A stretch of 64,000 nucleotides of DNA from Pelomonas caseinilytica. Lineage in GTDB: Bacteria; Pseudomonadota; Gammaproteobacteria; Burkholderiales; Burkholderiaceae_C. Position 1 is the first letter of the stretch, and the number at the start of each line of letters is the position of its first letter. The stretch is from NCBI RefSeq assembly GCF_021353235.1, contig NZ_JAJTWT010000002.1, positions 735,741-799,740 on the forward strand. Direction: 5' to 3'. The position numbers and the translations under genes were made by a program. This document shows, piece by piece, positions 45,927 to 51,621 of the stretch. The notes beneath the pieces were generated by a model that saw only the letters and a list, made by a program, of their open reading frames with translations, had not been told where the DNA came from and did no database searches.

Positions 45927-47006
45927 GTGCACGACGTCCTGCTTTACGCACTGCCGGTGTTCGTCGCCTGCATGGCCGCCGAATGGGCCTGGGGGCGCTG
46001 GCGGGGCCGCGACACCTACCGCCTCGCCGACACGCTGGGCAGCCTGAGCCAGGGCCTGCTCAGCCAGGGCGTGGCGGTGCTGACGCCGCTGTGCCAGACC
46101 GGCTTCTACGCCGCCGTGCACGGCCGCCTCGCCCTGCTGCCGGCCACGCTCTGGCACGGGGCCGTCGGCGTCGGGGCCGCCGTCGTCGTGTACGACTTCT
46201 GCGACTACTGGCTGCACCGCGCCAGCCACGAGAGCGCCCTGTTCTGGGCCGCGCATGCGGTGCACCACCAGAGCGAGCACTTCAACCTCAGCACCGCCCT
46301 GCGCCAGGAGAGCCTGTACGCCGTCATGGGCTGGCCGTTCTTCCTGCCCATGGCCGTGCTCGGGGTGCCGACCTCGCTCTACGCCCTGGCCGGCACGGTC
46401 GTGCTCTTCTACCAGTTCTGGATCCACACCGAGCACGTGGGCCGCCTCGGCTGGCTGGACGGCGTGCTGTCCACGCCCTCCAACCACCGCGTCCACCATG
46501 CCGTGAACCCGGCCTACCTGGACCGCAACTACGGCGCCATCTTCGTCGTCTGGGACCGGCTCTTCGGCAGCTTCGCGCCCGAGACCGAACCCTGCGTCTA
46601 CGGCACCGTCAAGCCGCTGGCGAGCTGGCATCCGCTGGCGGGCGTGGGCCAGTTCTACGCCGAGATGGCCCGGCGCATGAAGGCCACGCCGCGCTGGGCC
46701 GACAAGCTGCGCGTGCTGTGGAAGTCGCCGGGCTGGCTGCCACCGGGCGTGCCGCCGCCCGCGGAGGACGCCTTGCCCCGGCTGGCCCGGCCTCGCTTCG
46801 ATCCGCCGGCACTCCCGGCGGCGCGCGCGACGGCGGCCATCCTCTTCCTGGCCGTGGCCGCGGCGAGCGGCCTGTGGCTGGCCACGGCCGACGACCTCGG
46901 CCCGCTGGCCAACCTCGGCGCGGCGGCCGCCCTGACGGCCGGCCTGTGCGGCGTCGGCATGCTGCTGTCCCGCCGCGTGGCCGAGGAAAGCTCGGACGGC
47001 GAATAA
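45927..47006 (+). CDS. Sterol desaturase / fatty acid hydroxylase-family membrane protein
   Basis: A 359-residue di-iron membrane enzyme starting at GTG. The His clusters are H97-R-A-S-H101, H110...H113-H114-Q-S-E-H118 and N-H187-R-V-H190-H191, plus HTEH around 167-170, as in the family. Membrane helices flank them. It uses oxygen to hydroxylate or desaturate a lipid; the substrate is not evident. It lies 13 nt after the MipA gene, probably co-transcribed. The C-terminal 90 residues have an additional hydrophobic pair of uncertain role. Confidence 0.9.
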   Translation: MHDVLLYALPVFVACMAAEWAWGRWRGRDTYRLADTLGSLSQGLLSQGVAVLTPLCQTGFYAAVHGRLALLPATLWHGAVGVGAAVVVYDFCDYWLHRASHESALFWAAHAVHHQSEHFNLSTALRQESLYAVMGWPFFLPMAVLGVPTSLYALAGTVVLFYQFWIHTEHVGRLGWLDGVLSTPSNHRVHHAVNPAYLDRNYGAIFVVWDRLFGSFAPETEPCVYGTVKPLASWHPLAGVGQFYAEMARRMKATPRWADKLRVLWKSPGWLPPGVPPPAEDALPRLARPRFDPPALPAARATAAILFLAVAAASGLWLATADDLGPLANLGAAAALTAGLCGVGMLLSRRVAEESSDGE

Positions 47007-47081
47007 GCATCCCCGCTTTCCTTCGTTCCGCGCGCCGCCCGGCGTCCCTATCGTGCAAGGCCTGAACCGACACCGGCCGCC

Positions 47082-47642
47082 ATGCACATCACCAGCCTCT
47101 CCGCCAGCCCCAGCGAACGCTCACGCTCCGCCTGGCTCACGCAGTTCGCGCTGACCCGCCTCGAAGGCCGCGACACCCGGCATGACGACATCGTCGTGCG
47201 GACCCTGCCGCCCGCCGCGCTGCTCGCCGCCGACGTGCAGGACCCCGCCATCGCCGCGGCCGTGCGGGCCGTCGAGCAGGCCGACCTCGTCATCGTCGGC
47301 ACGCCCATCTACAAGGCAGCCTACAGCGGCCTGCTCAAGGTCTTCCTCGACCTGCTGCCGCCGGATGCGCTGCGCGGCAAGCTGGTGCTGCCCCTGGCCA
47401 CCGGCGGCAGCCCCGCCCACCTGCTGGCGCTGGACTACGCCCTCAAGCCCGTGCTCAGCGCCCTCGGCGCCCGCCACGTGCTCGACGGCGTCTTCGCCAC
47501 TGACGCTCAACTGCGCCGTCATGAAGCCGGCGGCTTCGTGCCCGAGGCCGACCTCATCGCGCGGCTGGACCGCGCCCTCGCGCCGCTGGCGCCGCGAATG
47601 CGCATCCACCTCGAGCCTCTGCAGCCGGCCCTGAGCTGTTGA
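47082..47642 (+). CDS. ssuE: NADPH-dependent FMN reductase SsuE
   Basis: A 186-residue flavodoxin-fold reductase supplying FMNH2 to the monooxygenase SsuD. It opens ITSLSASPSERSRSAWL (FMN phosphate site) and has DLVIVGTPIYKAAYSGLLKV and LPLATGGSPAHLLALDYALK, which are SsuE hallmarks. Length matches E. coli SsuE (191). It is first in the sulfonate cluster, separated from ssuA1 by a 134-nt gap containing an attenuator-like structure. Confidence 0.95.
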   Translation: MHITSLSASPSERSRSAWLTQFALTRLEGRDTRHDDIVVRTLPPAALLAADVQDPAIAAAVRAVEQADLVIVGTPIYKAAYSGLLKVFLDLLPPDALRGKLVLPLATGGSPAHLLALDYALKPVLSALGARHVLDGVFATDAQLRRHEAGGFVPEADLIARLDRALAPLAPRMRIHLEPLQPALSC

Positions 47643-47690
47643 CGCCGCAGGCCGCCTTTCAACCCACCGCTTGTCTCCTCGCCACCCGTT

Positions 47691-47759
47691 CCGGGATCGG
47701 CGACTTCATCCCGGCGCCTCGGGCGCGGATCGGGCGTGCCCGAGCGCCGGGATCTTTTT
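47691..47759 (+). promoter_or_regulatory. Attenuator-like leader with competing hairpins before ssuA1
   Basis: Segment 1 CCGGGAT (47691-47697) can pair with segment 2 ATCCCGG (47708-47714; 10-nt loop). Segment 2, as part of ATCCCGGCGCCTCGGGC (47708-47724), pairs alternatively with GCCCGAGCGCCGGGAT (47738-47753), a 16-bp stem with one bulge, followed by CTTTTT (47754-47759). That is a textbook terminator ending 17 nt before the ssuA1 ATG, leaving no room for a promoter after it. Read-through must therefore be regulated, or ssuA1-B would not be transcribed. Confidence 0.75.
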
Positions 47760-47776
47760 CGCACAGGACTCTCCCC

Positions 47777-48736
47777 ATGCCCTTCCGCTCCCTGCTCCGC
47801 TGGACCGCCCTGCCCCTGCTGGCGGCCTTCAGCCTGCACGCCGCCGCGCAGACCACGCTGCGCATCGGCTTCCAGAAATCGGCCAGCCTGCTGACCCTGC
47901 AGAAGTCCAGCGGCTCGCTGGAAAAGCGCCTCGCGCCGCTGGGCGTGGCCGTCAAGTGGGTCGAATTCCCCGCCGGCCCGCAGCTGCTCGAAGGCCTGAA
48001 CGTCGGCGCCGTCGACGTGGGCTTCGTCGGCGAGGCGCCGCCCATCTTCGCCCAGGCCGCCGGCGCCAGGTTCGTCTACATCGGCCACGACCCGGCCGCC
48101 CCCGAGGCCGAGGCCCTGGTCGTGCCCAAGGACTCGCCCATCCGCTCGCTGGCCGACCTGAAGGGCCGCAAGATCGCGCTGAACAAGGGCAGCAACGTCC
48201 ACTACCTGCTCGTCAAGGCGCTGGAGAAGCAGGGCCTGAAATACGGCGACATCCAGCCCGTCTACCTGCCGCCGGCCGACGCCCGCGCCGCCTTCGAGCG
48301 CGGCGCGGTGGACGCCTGGGTGATCTGGGACCCCTTCCTCGCCGCCGTCGAGAAGCAGAGCGGCGCACGGGTGCTGCTGGACGGCCGCGGCCTCGTCAAC
48401 AACTACGCCTATTACCTCGCCGAGCGTGGCTTCGCGCAGCAGCACCCCGAGCTCATCCAGGCCCTGTTCGACGACAGCCAGGCCCAGGCCGCCTACGTGA
48501 AGGCCAACACCCGCGCCGCCGCCGCCGTCATCGCGCCGCTGCAAGGCCTGGAGCCCGAGGTGGTCGAGAAGAGCCTGACGCGCTATCAGTTCGGCGTGAA
48601 GCCGCTCACGCCGGCCATCGCCGCCGAGCAGCAGAAGATCGCCGACGCCTTCCACGCCCTGGGCCTCATCCCTAGGCCCATCCGCGTCGCGGACGCCCTG
48701 CCCGGCAACGCGAAGGTCGCGGAGGCCGCCCGATGA
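47777..48736 (+). CDS. ssuA: Sulfonate ABC transporter substrate-binding protein SsuA, copy 1
   Basis: A 319-residue periplasmic binding protein with signal peptide MPFRSLLRWTALPLLAAFSL, cleaved near HAAAQ. The mature part opens TLRIGFQKSASLLTLQKSSG and has [32 protein letters not shown] and VDAWVIWDPF, all typical for SsuA/aliphatic sulfonate binders. AGGA lies upstream of the ATG. An in-frame extension to a TTG near the ssuE stop runs through the attenuator and is rejected. It overlaps the second copy by ATGA. Confidence 0.95.
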   Translation: MPFRSLLRWTALPLLAAFSLHAAAQTTLRIGFQKSASLLTLQKSSGSLEKRLAPLGVAVKWVEFPAGPQLLEGLNVGAVDVGFVGEAPPIFAQAAGARFVYIGHDPAAPEAEALVVPKDSPIRSLADLKGRKIALNKGSNVHYLLVKALEKQGLKYGDIQPVYLPPADARAAFERGAVDAWVIWDPFLAAVEKQSGARVLLDGRGLVNNYAYYLAERGFAQQHPELIQALFDDSQAQAAYVKANTRAAAAVIAPLQGLEPEVVEKSLTRYQFGVKPLTPAIAAEQQKIADAFHALGLIPRPIRVADALPGNAKVAEAAR

Positions 48737-49680
48737 GCGCCCCGGCCACGCGGCGCGCCGCCGTCGCCATCCTCGCCACCACCGCAGCGCTGTGGAGCCG
48801 CGCCCAGACGCCGGCCAGCCTGCGCATCGGTTTCCAGAAGGGCTCGCTCAACCTCGCGCTGCTCAAGGCCTACGGCCTGCTGGAGCAGCGCCTGGGCGGC
48901 ACACGCGTCCAGTGGACCGAGTTCCCGGCCGGCCCTCAGCTGCTCGAAGCCCTGGCCCTGGGCAGCGTGGACTTCGGCGCCACCGGCGATGCGCCGCCCG
49001 TCTTCGCCCAGGCGGCGGGCAAGGACATCGTCTACGTCGGCGCCGAGCCGCCCAAACCCGACAGTTCGGCGGTGCTGGTCAAGCCCGGCTCGCCGCTGAA
49101 GACCCTGGCCGACCTCAAGGGCCGGCGCCTGGCGCTGCAACGCGGCAGCAGCGCCCACTTCCTGGCCGTGCAGGCCCTGCGCCGGGCCGGCCTGGCGTGG
49201 GCCGACATCCAGGCCGTCTACCTGCCGCCGGCCGAGGCGCGCGCGGCCTTCGAGCGCGGCTCGGTCGACGCCTGGGCGGTGTGGGACCCGTATTACGCGG
49301 CGGCCGAGGTCAGCGGCGAACTGCGCGCCCTGGCCACCAGCCGCGGGCTGACGAGCAACAACACCTTCTACCTCGCGTCACGCCCGCTCAGCCAGCAGGC
49401 CGCGCTGCTGAAGACGCTGTTCCAGGCACTCACCGACACCGACGCCCGCGTGCAGGCCGACCGCCGCGACGCCGTGCAGCGCTATGCCGGCTTCGCCGGC
49501 CTGCCGGTGGCCACCGTCGAGCGCATGGTCGAGCGCCGCGGCGCCGCGCCCGTGGGGCCGCTCACTGCCGCCCTCGTCGCCGAGCAGCAGCAGGTGGCCG
49601 ACGCCTTCGCCGAACTCGGCCTCATTCCCCGCGCCATCCGCGTGGCCGACGCGGTCGCCACTCCCTTCCACAAAGCCTGA
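48733..49680 (+). CDS. Sulfonate ABC transporter substrate-binding protein SsuA, copy 2
   Basis: A 315-residue paralogue of the preceding protein. Shared landmarks include [52 protein letters not shown] and [20 protein letters not shown]. The leader [20 protein letters not shown] looks Tat-like (RR) or Sec. The copies differ throughout, so the duplication is not recent; they probably bind different sulfonates. Start and upstream stop overlap by ATGA; ssuD follows after 7 nt. Confidence 0.93.
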
Positions 49681-49687
49681 GGCCCCC

Positions 49688-50854
49688 ATGAAGATCTTCT
49701 GGTTCATCCCCACCCACGGCGACAGCCGCTACCTCGGCAGCTCGCGCGGCGCCCGCGTGGCCGACCACGCCTACTTCAAGCAGGTGGCCATCGCGGCAGA
49801 CAGCCTCGGCTACGAAGGCGTGCTGCTGCCCACCGGCCGCAGCTGCGAAGACTCGTGGATCGTCGCGGCCAGCCTCATCGACGCGACGCGGCGGCTCAAG
49901 TTCCTCGTCGCCCTGCGGCCCGGCCTCGTCGCGCCGGCGCAGAGCGCCCGCATGGCCGCCACGCTGGACCGCCTCTCGGGCGGCCGGCTGCTCGTCAACC
50001 TCGTCACCGGCGGCGATCCCGAGGAGCTGGCCGGCGACGGCCAGTTCCTCGACCACGCAACCCGCTACGAGGAGTCCGCCGAGTTCATCCGCATCTGGCG
50101 CGAGCTGCTGGCCCGCTCGCACGACGGCGGCAGCCTGGACTTCGACGGCCGCCACCTCGCCGTGAAGGGCGGCAAGGTCCTCTACCCGCCCATCAGCCGG
50201 CCCTACCCGCCGGTCTTCTTCGGCGGCTCTTCGGCGCCGGCCCACGAGCTGGCTGCGGCCCAGGTGGACACCTACCTCACCTGGGGCGAGGCGCCCGAGG
50301 ACGTGGCCGCCAAGATCGCCGACGTGCGTGAGCGCGCCGCCGCCCACGGCCGCACGCTGCGCTACGGCATCCGGCTGCACGTCATCGTGCGCGAGACCGA
50401 GGACGAAGCCTGGCGCGCCGCCGGTGAATTGCTCAGCCAGCTCGACGAGGCCACCGTCGCCGCGGCCCAGGCCCGCTTCGCGAAGATGGACTCCGTCGGC
50501 CAGCGCCGCATGGCCGAGCTGCACGCCGGGCGCTTCGACAAGGCCGACGTGCGCCGCGGCCTGGAGATCGCGCCCAACCTCTGGGCCGGCGTGGGCCTGG
50601 TGCGCGGCGGCGCGGGCACGGCCCTGGTGGGCAACCCGCACCAGGTGGCCGAGCGGATCAAGGCCTATGCCGACCTCGGCCTCGAATACTTCGTGCTGTC
50701 CGGCTACCCGCACCTGGACGAGGCCCACCGTTTTGCCGAGCTCGTCTTCCCGCTGCTGCCGCTGGACCTGCGCGAGAAGCTCTCGGCGCCGGCCCTGACG
50801 GGGCCGTTCGGCGAAGTCATCGCCAACCACGACGCGCCCAAGGCGGCTGCATGA
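49688..50854 (+). CDS. ssuD: FMNH2-dependent alkanesulfonate monooxygenase SsuD
   Basis: A 388-residue luciferase-fold monooxygenase that releases sulfite from alkanesulfonates with FMNH2 and oxygen. It opens [19 protein letters not shown], has [40 protein letters not shown] and [20 protein letters not shown], as in E. coli SsuD (381 residues). It uses flavin from SsuE. The stop overlaps ssuC by ATGA. Frames open upstream in this reading are shadows of the SsuA copy. Confidence 0.97.
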
Positions 50855-51621
50855 CAGCCGCCCACCGCCTCCTGCCCTGGCTGCTGCCCGCGGCCCTGCT
50901 GCTGGCCTGGGAGGTCGCCTCGCGCCAAGGCTGGCTGGCCGCGCGCATCCTGCCCGAGCCGGCGGCCGTGCTGGCCGCCTTCTGGCAGCTGCTGCGCTCG
51001 GGCGAGCTGGCGCACCACGTCGCCGTCAGCAGCCTGCGCGCCTTCTCGGCCCTCGCCCTCGGCGGCAGCCTCGGCCTGGCGCTGGGCCTGCTGACCGGCA
51101 CCTGGCGGCAGGCCGAGGCCCTGCTCGACACCACCCTGCAGATGCTGCGCAACATCCCGGCCCTGGCGCTCATTCCCCTCGTCATCCTGTGGTTCGGCAT
51201 CGACGAGGCGGCCAAGCTCGTGCTGGTGGCGGTGGGCGTGTTCTTCCCCGTCTACCTCAACACCTTCCACGGCATCCGCGGCGTCGACCGCGACCTCGTC
51301 GAGATGGCGCGCAGCTACGGCCTGCGTGGCTGGCGGCTGTACCGCCACGTCATCCTGCCCGGCGCCCTGCCGTCCATCCTCGTGGGCCTGCGCTTTTCCC
51401 TCGGACTGATGTGGGTGCTACTCATCGTCGCCGAGACGCTGTCGGCCCAGGCCGGCATCGGCTACCTGACGATGAACGCCCGCGAGTTCCTACAGACCGA
51501 CGTCGTCCTCGTCGGCATCCTGCTCTACGCCCTGCTCGGCAAGCTGGCGGACGTGCTGGCCCGGGCACTCGAACGGGCCTGGCTGCCCTGGCACCGCGGC
51601 TATGCCGCGCAAGGAGCCTGA
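50851..51621 (+). CDS. ssuC: Sulfonate ABC transporter permease SsuC
   Basis: A 256-residue inner-membrane permease with about six helices, e.g. [19 protein letters not shown] at the start and [20 protein letters not shown]. The EAA loop is [20 protein letters not shown] followed by [13 protein letters not shown]. It is specific to the SsuC/TauC group by the segment [17 protein letters not shown]. It couples to SsuB and receives sulfonates from the SsuA copies. Confidence 0.95.

Follow-up and report, generated by a model that had tools for sequence, protein, structure and literature searches.

The ssu Operon and Its Intergenic Element

The window considered here, a stretch of 64,000 nucleotides from Pelomonas caseinilytica, carries a sulfonate operon that opens with ssuE and continues through the transporter genes on the same strand (Table 1). 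The ssuD gene is preceded by two tandem SsuA-family binding proteins (47777-49680). Between ssuE and ssuA1 lies a compact element composed of a short 5' tip, a first hairpin and an intrinsic terminator.

Table 1. Genes and sequence features of the ssu operon, in coordinates of the window
Feature	Position	Strand	Basis
Promoter-like block 5' of ssuE: ATAAGCA (47003-47009), TTCGTTC (47022-47028), 19 nt, CTATCGT (47048-47054)	47003..47054	+	Conservation
ssuE, NADPH-dependent FMN reductase	47082..47642	+	TIGR03567, 203.3 bits (cut-off 164.05)
5' tip TTGTCTCCTC	47671..47680	+	Letters 1-8 predicted to be unpaired; complementary to GAGGAGACAA ribosome-binding site
Hairpin 1, TCGCC-CCCG / CGGG-GGCGA	47679..47703	+	Minimum-energy fold
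Intrinsic terminator, stem 47708-47753, T5 47755-47759	47708..47759	+	Fold and terminator scan; -40.1 kcal/mol
ssuA1, sulfonate-binding protein	47777..48736	+	TIGR01728 248.3 bits and NF008588 311.6 bits, both above cut-off
ssuA2, ssuD, ssuC, downstream of ssuA1 and codirectional	48733..51621	+	NCBIfam models above cut-off

A first-pass annotation of this DNA had read the region as a competing-hairpin attenuator, built from the segments CCGGGAT (47691-47697), ATCCCGG (47708-47714) and CCGGGAT (47747-47753) and ending 17 nt before ssuA1. The segments are found at these positions, 17 nt do separate the T5 from the ssuA1 ATG at 47777, and the predicted fold of 47643-47776 contains the stem 47708-47753, so that a real terminator lies within the operon, between ssuE and ssuA1. 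Shuffled versions of the sequence average -50.8 kcal/mol (sd 3.4), whereas the native fold has -59.7 (z -2.6), a value that 2 of 200 shuffles reach, and a terminator scan of 47000-48200 returns this one site at 47708-47759 where shuffles give 0.3. In the minimum-energy structure, hairpin 1, absent from the first-pass annotation, forms, and the 7-bp CCGGGAT:ATCCCGG pairing does not.

The annotation also held that no promoter fits downstream of the terminator, and a scan of 47000-48200 for sigma70-like promoters agrees, returning 0 sites, although this is weak evidence of absence because the scan fails to pick up even the conserved block 5' of ssuE, the putative promoter. Provided that the ssuE-ssuA1 gap has no promoter, ssuA1 can be reached by read-through only, and the terminator would form a partial block to its transcription. 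The further claim that no known riboswitch is present stands as well: at Rfam curated scores the whole window yields two tRNAs only, and a search of 46900-48000 up to E 5 found no riboswitch, its one cis-regulatory match being a 14.2-bit radC element within ssuA1. With the Rfam library as the search space, no ligand, leader peptide or binding site for attenuation was found. Weak Rfam matches to Scr3202, anti-hemB, snoU54, Bcj11 and radC fall below cut-off and were taken as chance or as a shared terminator shape. A coding leader was rejected on the lengths of the indels in the genus alignment, which are not multiples of three, and a dispersed repeat was rejected when BLAST of the leader against the genome returned only itself.

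Conservation Within the Genus and Family

The leader is matched in 17 of the 20 genomes of the genus and SsuE in 18, and the element is present in 17 of the 18 that have ssuE. Each of the 17 copies places the tip, hairpin 1, linker and terminator between ssuE and ssuA1, with TTGTCTCCTC exact in 16; the exceptional genome, G019, retains ssuE and ssuA, and the 1,701 bases examined there are free of TGTCTCC. Hairpin 1 is paired in 98.6% of cells over the 17 copies, among which no covariation of this hairpin was detected, and the structural support comes from other lineages rather than from within the genus. In R. asaccharophilus (L020), R. violae (L021, which lies on the same contig as L153), G102 (L154) and G137 (L171), the tip, hairpin and terminator are kept and the stem letters differ. 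When these lineages and the stand-alone copies described below are aligned by hand, the third pair of hairpin 1 occurs as G-C, G-U, A-U or C-G, the fourth as C-G, U-A or A-U, and the fifth as C-G or U-A. The terminator loop carries GATCGGG (47728-47734; L095-L110), unusual in a terminator loop, which is invariant in all 17 genus copies and is not kept in L020, L021 or L154.

Of the 35 family genomes with an SsuA1 match, 19 were sampled at one locus each. An SsuE-like match is present in 16 of these loci; the full element occurs in three, TGTCTCC without a clean double hairpin in two, and no TGTCTCC in the remaining 14. Element-free loci with the same gene order exist. L162 and L169, in which the ssuE-ssuA gap has TTGTCTCCTC but no clean double hairpin, were set aside. 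A covariance model of the ssu element, built from the 17 genus copies alone, was compared with 80 named loci and gave nine matches at E < 0.001, eight of them before ssuA and one (L054) 2.3 kb away; in six of the eight the element is identical to genus copies already counted. The copy in Xenophilus (L043) was found through TGTCTCC and T5 and not through the model. There, a double-hairpin RNA of the same type (~2147-2200) precedes ssuA and lies ~15 nt 3' of a gene resembling acyl-CoA dehydrogenases, for which SfnB is among the weak matches (95.7 bits, with the cut-off at 430.9). Methylibium (L051) has TGTCTCC upstream and, by eye, no double hairpin, and was rejected. The Cupriavidus matches (L054, E 4.5e-4; L060, L064 and L073, weaker) were omitted from the ssu set because they carry TTGTCTACC and lie 1.6-2.3 kb before ssuA. 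They form a conserved RNA-like element of their own (L054 165-233, L060 193-263, L073 228-297, L064 869-934), in which a GTCATG/CATGAC hairpin is followed by TTGTCTACC, two hairpins and a T-run.

Relation to the RF02278 RNAs

The best loose-threshold Rfam match at the site is RF02278, the Betaproteobacteria toxic sRNA, over 47672-47760, with 23.7 bits (E 0.032 or 0.0088, according to how much sequence was searched) against a gathering score of 50 bits, which the ssu element thus misses. The first nine letters, UGUCUCCUC, are identical to the RF02278 consensus, and the tip is unpaired or partly unpaired in the predicted folds. When the 17 genus loci were searched with RF02278 at E up to 3, L103 scored 31.6 and L104 31.2 bits and the others, the window copy included, were unlisted; ten further loci at E 3 gave no match. 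The P. caseinilytica genome also holds three stand-alone copies of the RF02278 type (L002-L004), two of them above the cut-off (60.1 and 50.6 bits) and one just below it (47.9 bits); in the same genome-wide search the ssu element was absent among the 150 of 380 candidates scored.

Two hairpins, the second being the terminator, appear in the folds of the 17 genus copies, of L020, L021, L043, L154 and L171, and of the stand-alone L002-L004. The minimum-energy layout of 8-9 unpaired letters, a hairpin, a 3-5 nt linker and a terminator is common to 16 of the 17 genus copies, L020, L021, L043 and L002-L004; the exception is L110, in which an altered tip is partly paired. A search of the 6-Mb genome for TGTCTCCTC-N46-76-T5 gave five rows, which fall at three places (L002, L003 and the ssu element), and none in the reversed control, L004 escaping because its T-run is broken and ends TTTTCT. 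Among 83 loci the ssu model recovered L004 (E 4e-4) and L003 (E 5e-4) and missed L002. Against the whole genome it listed the ssu element itself and one 14.5-bit match, with L002-L004 absent among the 150 of 11450 candidates scored.

The excerpted accounts of the RF02278 RNAs (ncS03, ncS05, ncS27 and ncS62 of B. cenocepacia, and bdhR1) describe the same UGUCUCCUC tip and the same two hairpins with the second as terminator, the tip being complementary to ribosome-binding sites (PMC5688073, PMC4603805). In the RNAs so described, a CU-rich loop in hairpin 1 serves as a second pairing site. The stand-alone L002-L004 have such a loop, whereas the ssu element does not keep it, with UUC in the window and varied letters across the genus, and its hairpin 1 and terminator are longer and GC-rich. 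The RF02278 RNAs are stand-alone genes, unlike the ssu element, which lies inside a sulfonate operon. Because both the cut-off and the CU-rich loop are lacking, we place the element outside RF02278.

A Conserved Block Before ssuE

The block of ATAAGCA, TTCGTTC, 19 nt and CTATCGT stands before ssuE in 15 of the 17 genus loci, and a similar block occurs in 8 of the 19 family loci of other genera as well as in L022 and L065. Its placement varies: it precedes ssuE in L153, L154, L162 and L171, lies directly 5' of ssuA in L157, L158, L022 and L065, and is found a few hundred bases before ssuA in L159 and L160. It is a putative sulfur-responsive promoter, perhaps of the CysB or SsuR type. Before the element itself no promoter-like block was seen. 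An attempt to derive a sulfur regulon from the block was abandoned, as the genome holds 1 exact site, and allowing two mismatches raises the count to 8, with 5 in the reversed control.

G102 has a second copy of the element without ssuE (L172 ~1024-1209; G102:C22:113070-113199), followed by a frame of 77 codons. The stretch 5' of it is identical at 50 of 63 positions to the ssuE block of G102, where the next best reaches 28-30 of 63. Since CTATCGT-N25-55-TGTCTCCTC occurs in 3 of 399 family genomes, the same number as its reversed control, and with a clean double hairpin in G102 only, this copy is a single case and is treated as a lead rather than a rule.

A Probable Small RNA Embedded in the Operon

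Four observations can be made from the sequence: the element is located between ssuE and ssuA1, it is conserved, its layout is common to the stand-alone copies, and a conserved block stands before ssuE. In tip sequence and predicted fold, 47671-47759 appears to be of the kind represented by RF02278 and Bordetella S17S. We consider that this interval is probably a double-hairpin anti-Shine-Dalgarno sRNA that likely originates from the ssuE-ssuA1 transcript and whose predicted effect is a block of translation. The tip at 47671 would be its 5' end and the T5 at 47755-47759 its 3' end. Transcription would start from the block before ssuE; some transcripts would stop at the terminator, setting the 3' end, and would be cut just before TTGTCTCC, setting the 5' end. 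The released RNA would bind Hfq and, under sulfur shortage, repress in trans, blocking translation of mRNAs with GGAGACA in the ribosome-binding site, while the same terminator would lower ssuA1 and the later genes relative to ssuE, so that one promoter would yield both an sRNA and the transporter mRNA.

A plain operon-internal terminator would set the ratio of ssuE to ssuA1 and protect the 3' end of ssuE, leaving the tip as a relic and making no sRNA. A strong terminator after a single gene is what such an arrangement would look like, and the effect on the ratio is expected anyway from terminators between these genes. This explanation requires neither the tip nor hairpin 1, however, and the tip is exact in all but one of the genus copies and is kept in four further lineages despite changes in the stems, which makes it unlikely. 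L162 and L169 are compatible with the plain terminator and with the embedded sRNA alike.

The attenuator proposed at first pass, in which the 3' arm of hairpin 1 would pair with the 5' arm of the terminator on some signal and so let transcription run into ssuA1, is to be judged on the competing pairs themselves. Four of these are present in every one of the 17 genus copies and a fifth in all but one; the four inner pairs are fixed because the 3' arm of hairpin 1 is G-rich and the 5' arm of the terminator C-rich. All seven pairs, the full CCGGGAT:ATCCCGG, form in only 6 of the 17. Paired cells amount to 87.4%, against 61.2% at most when the arms are slid, but none of the pairs shows a two-sided change, and the stem covariation that the annotation had named as a check did not appear, the score lying within the shuffles (248 of 500 as high). 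Hairpin 1 has energies of -8.9 to -12.6 kcal/mol and the terminators -18.2 to -42.9; the competitor has -15.4 in the window (where, as in the genus energies generally, an extra hairpin inside the terminator arm is included), -12.1 in L171, -9.9 in L154 and -7.6 in L021. It is as stable as hairpin 1 or more so in the window and in L171, and close to it in L154, but in L020 it reaches -2.8 against -9.0 for hairpin 1, and wherever computed it is far weaker than the terminator. When partial transcripts are folded, hairpin 1 has the lowest energy in 14 of the 17 copies and a competitor wins in three (L098, L102, L103).

The proximity of the terminator to ssuA1 suits attenuation, as does the weaker competitor of the stand-alone L002-L004 (-1.8 to -6.5 kcal/mol). 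Against it, the tip and the two-hairpin layout recur in stand-alone sRNAs, and the ssuE-less copy of G102 has the same competitor (-10.0 kcal/mol), yet no transporter gene downstream. On balance the terminator of the first-pass proposal stands and the competitor is not supported as the main switch; an attenuator of this design seems improbable, and the competing pairing is read as mainly a by-product. Because it is more extensive in the ssu copies than in the stand-alone RNAs, it may have a secondary role in read-through.

An extension of the embedded-sRNA reading can be imagined as a RyhB-like arm for sulfur starvation, in which the promoter fires and the terminated transcripts yield an sRNA that damps the mRNAs of uptake and catabolism, while binding of the tip to abundant targets opens hairpin 1 and frees its 3' arm to pair with the terminator arm, whereupon the transporter genes are read and the operon senses its own regulon. 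We regard this scheme as speculative and quite unlikely.

An sRNA with its own promoter in the gap between ssuE and the element, rather than one cut from the ssuE transcript, is very improbable: TTGACG (47639-47644) does lie ~30 nt 5' of the tip, with similar letters in several relatives, but it overlaps the ssuE stop codon, is CTGTCG in 5 of the 17 genus copies and stands at a variable distance from the tip, and no -10 hexamer was seen.

Precedents

For an sRNA released from the ssuE-ssuA1 transcript, the closest parallel is S17S of B. pertussis, which the excerpted report describes as an RNA of 67 nt that lacks a promoter at the 5' end, is cut by RNase E and is bound by Hfq; its 5' region resembles an RF02278 RNA, and it matches the ribosome-binding sites of most genes that rise in its absence (PMC11722255). 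Both S17/S17S, as there described, and the ssu element have a conserved CU-rich tip and a terminator, and in neither was a promoter seen where the short RNA starts (PMC11722255). They differ in that S17 is made as a long precursor from a promoter of its own, and in that processing, Hfq binding and targets, shown for S17 in that account (PMC11722255), are here carried over by analogy: by this comparison the ssu RNA would be made and cut, bound by Hfq, and would repress in trans.

A model for how such an RNA might work is offered by ncS63 of B. cenocepacia, an sRNA that, according to the excerpted study, comes from the hemP 3' end, on a transcript common to both, hemP being a nutrient-regulated gene; the double-hairpin RNAs of the same organism are there predicted to pair at ribosome-binding sites (PMC5688073). 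As described, ncS63 differs from the ssu element in sequence, structure and family, and concerns iron rather than sulfur. A 2010 survey, in the part available, records terminator-type leaders before sulfonate transporters; its alkanesulfonate leader comes from bacilli and is likened to the present element by description only. In titles and abstracts, among the matches listed, no such RNA was placed in a sulfonate operon. The ssu element resembles a double-hairpin anti-Shine-Dalgarno RNA and would act as one; what is unusual is its place inside a sulfonate operon. The family has many RNAs of this tip and layout, and the sulfonate-operon copy would tie one of them to a defined nutrient signal in a way that is testable. 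An operon-internal terminator need not be a switch and can instead form the 3' end of a product.

Candidate Targets and Related Tips

The motif GGAGACAA-N1-9-ATG gives 44 rows in the genome and 0 in the reversed control. The table of targets drawn up holds 34 rows (32 sites), with ten proteins named by Pfam. Those ten genes, which have the shorter GGAGACA site, include a formate/nitrite transporter, the small subunit of a NiFe hydrogenase, two AMP-binding enzymes and several transport proteins, and the strongest computed pairing is with the leader of the formate/nitrite transporter (-20.2 kcal/mol). No sulfur theme emerged from the names of the candidates. Because the stand-alone copies carry an identical tip, these candidates would be targets common to the whole set of RNAs.

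RF02278 RNAs are described as small RNAs whose overproduction hinders the growth of E. coli. In the family, the TGTCTCCTC tip with a terminator occurs in at least 111 of 120 genomes, against 7 for the reversed control. Among the matches listed, in genomes G020-G137, the tip with a terminator falls into several sequence classes, in which it is followed by CACC, CTGGCAC, GGGTCC or GGTACC, and RF02278 may cover only part of these. In the stand-alone L002, on the reverse strand, a palindrome, GCGAAAACGTTTTCGC, lies ~6 nt 5' of the tip and resembles what we take to be a LacI-type operator. Further upstream, CTGCAATAT is common to L002 and L004.
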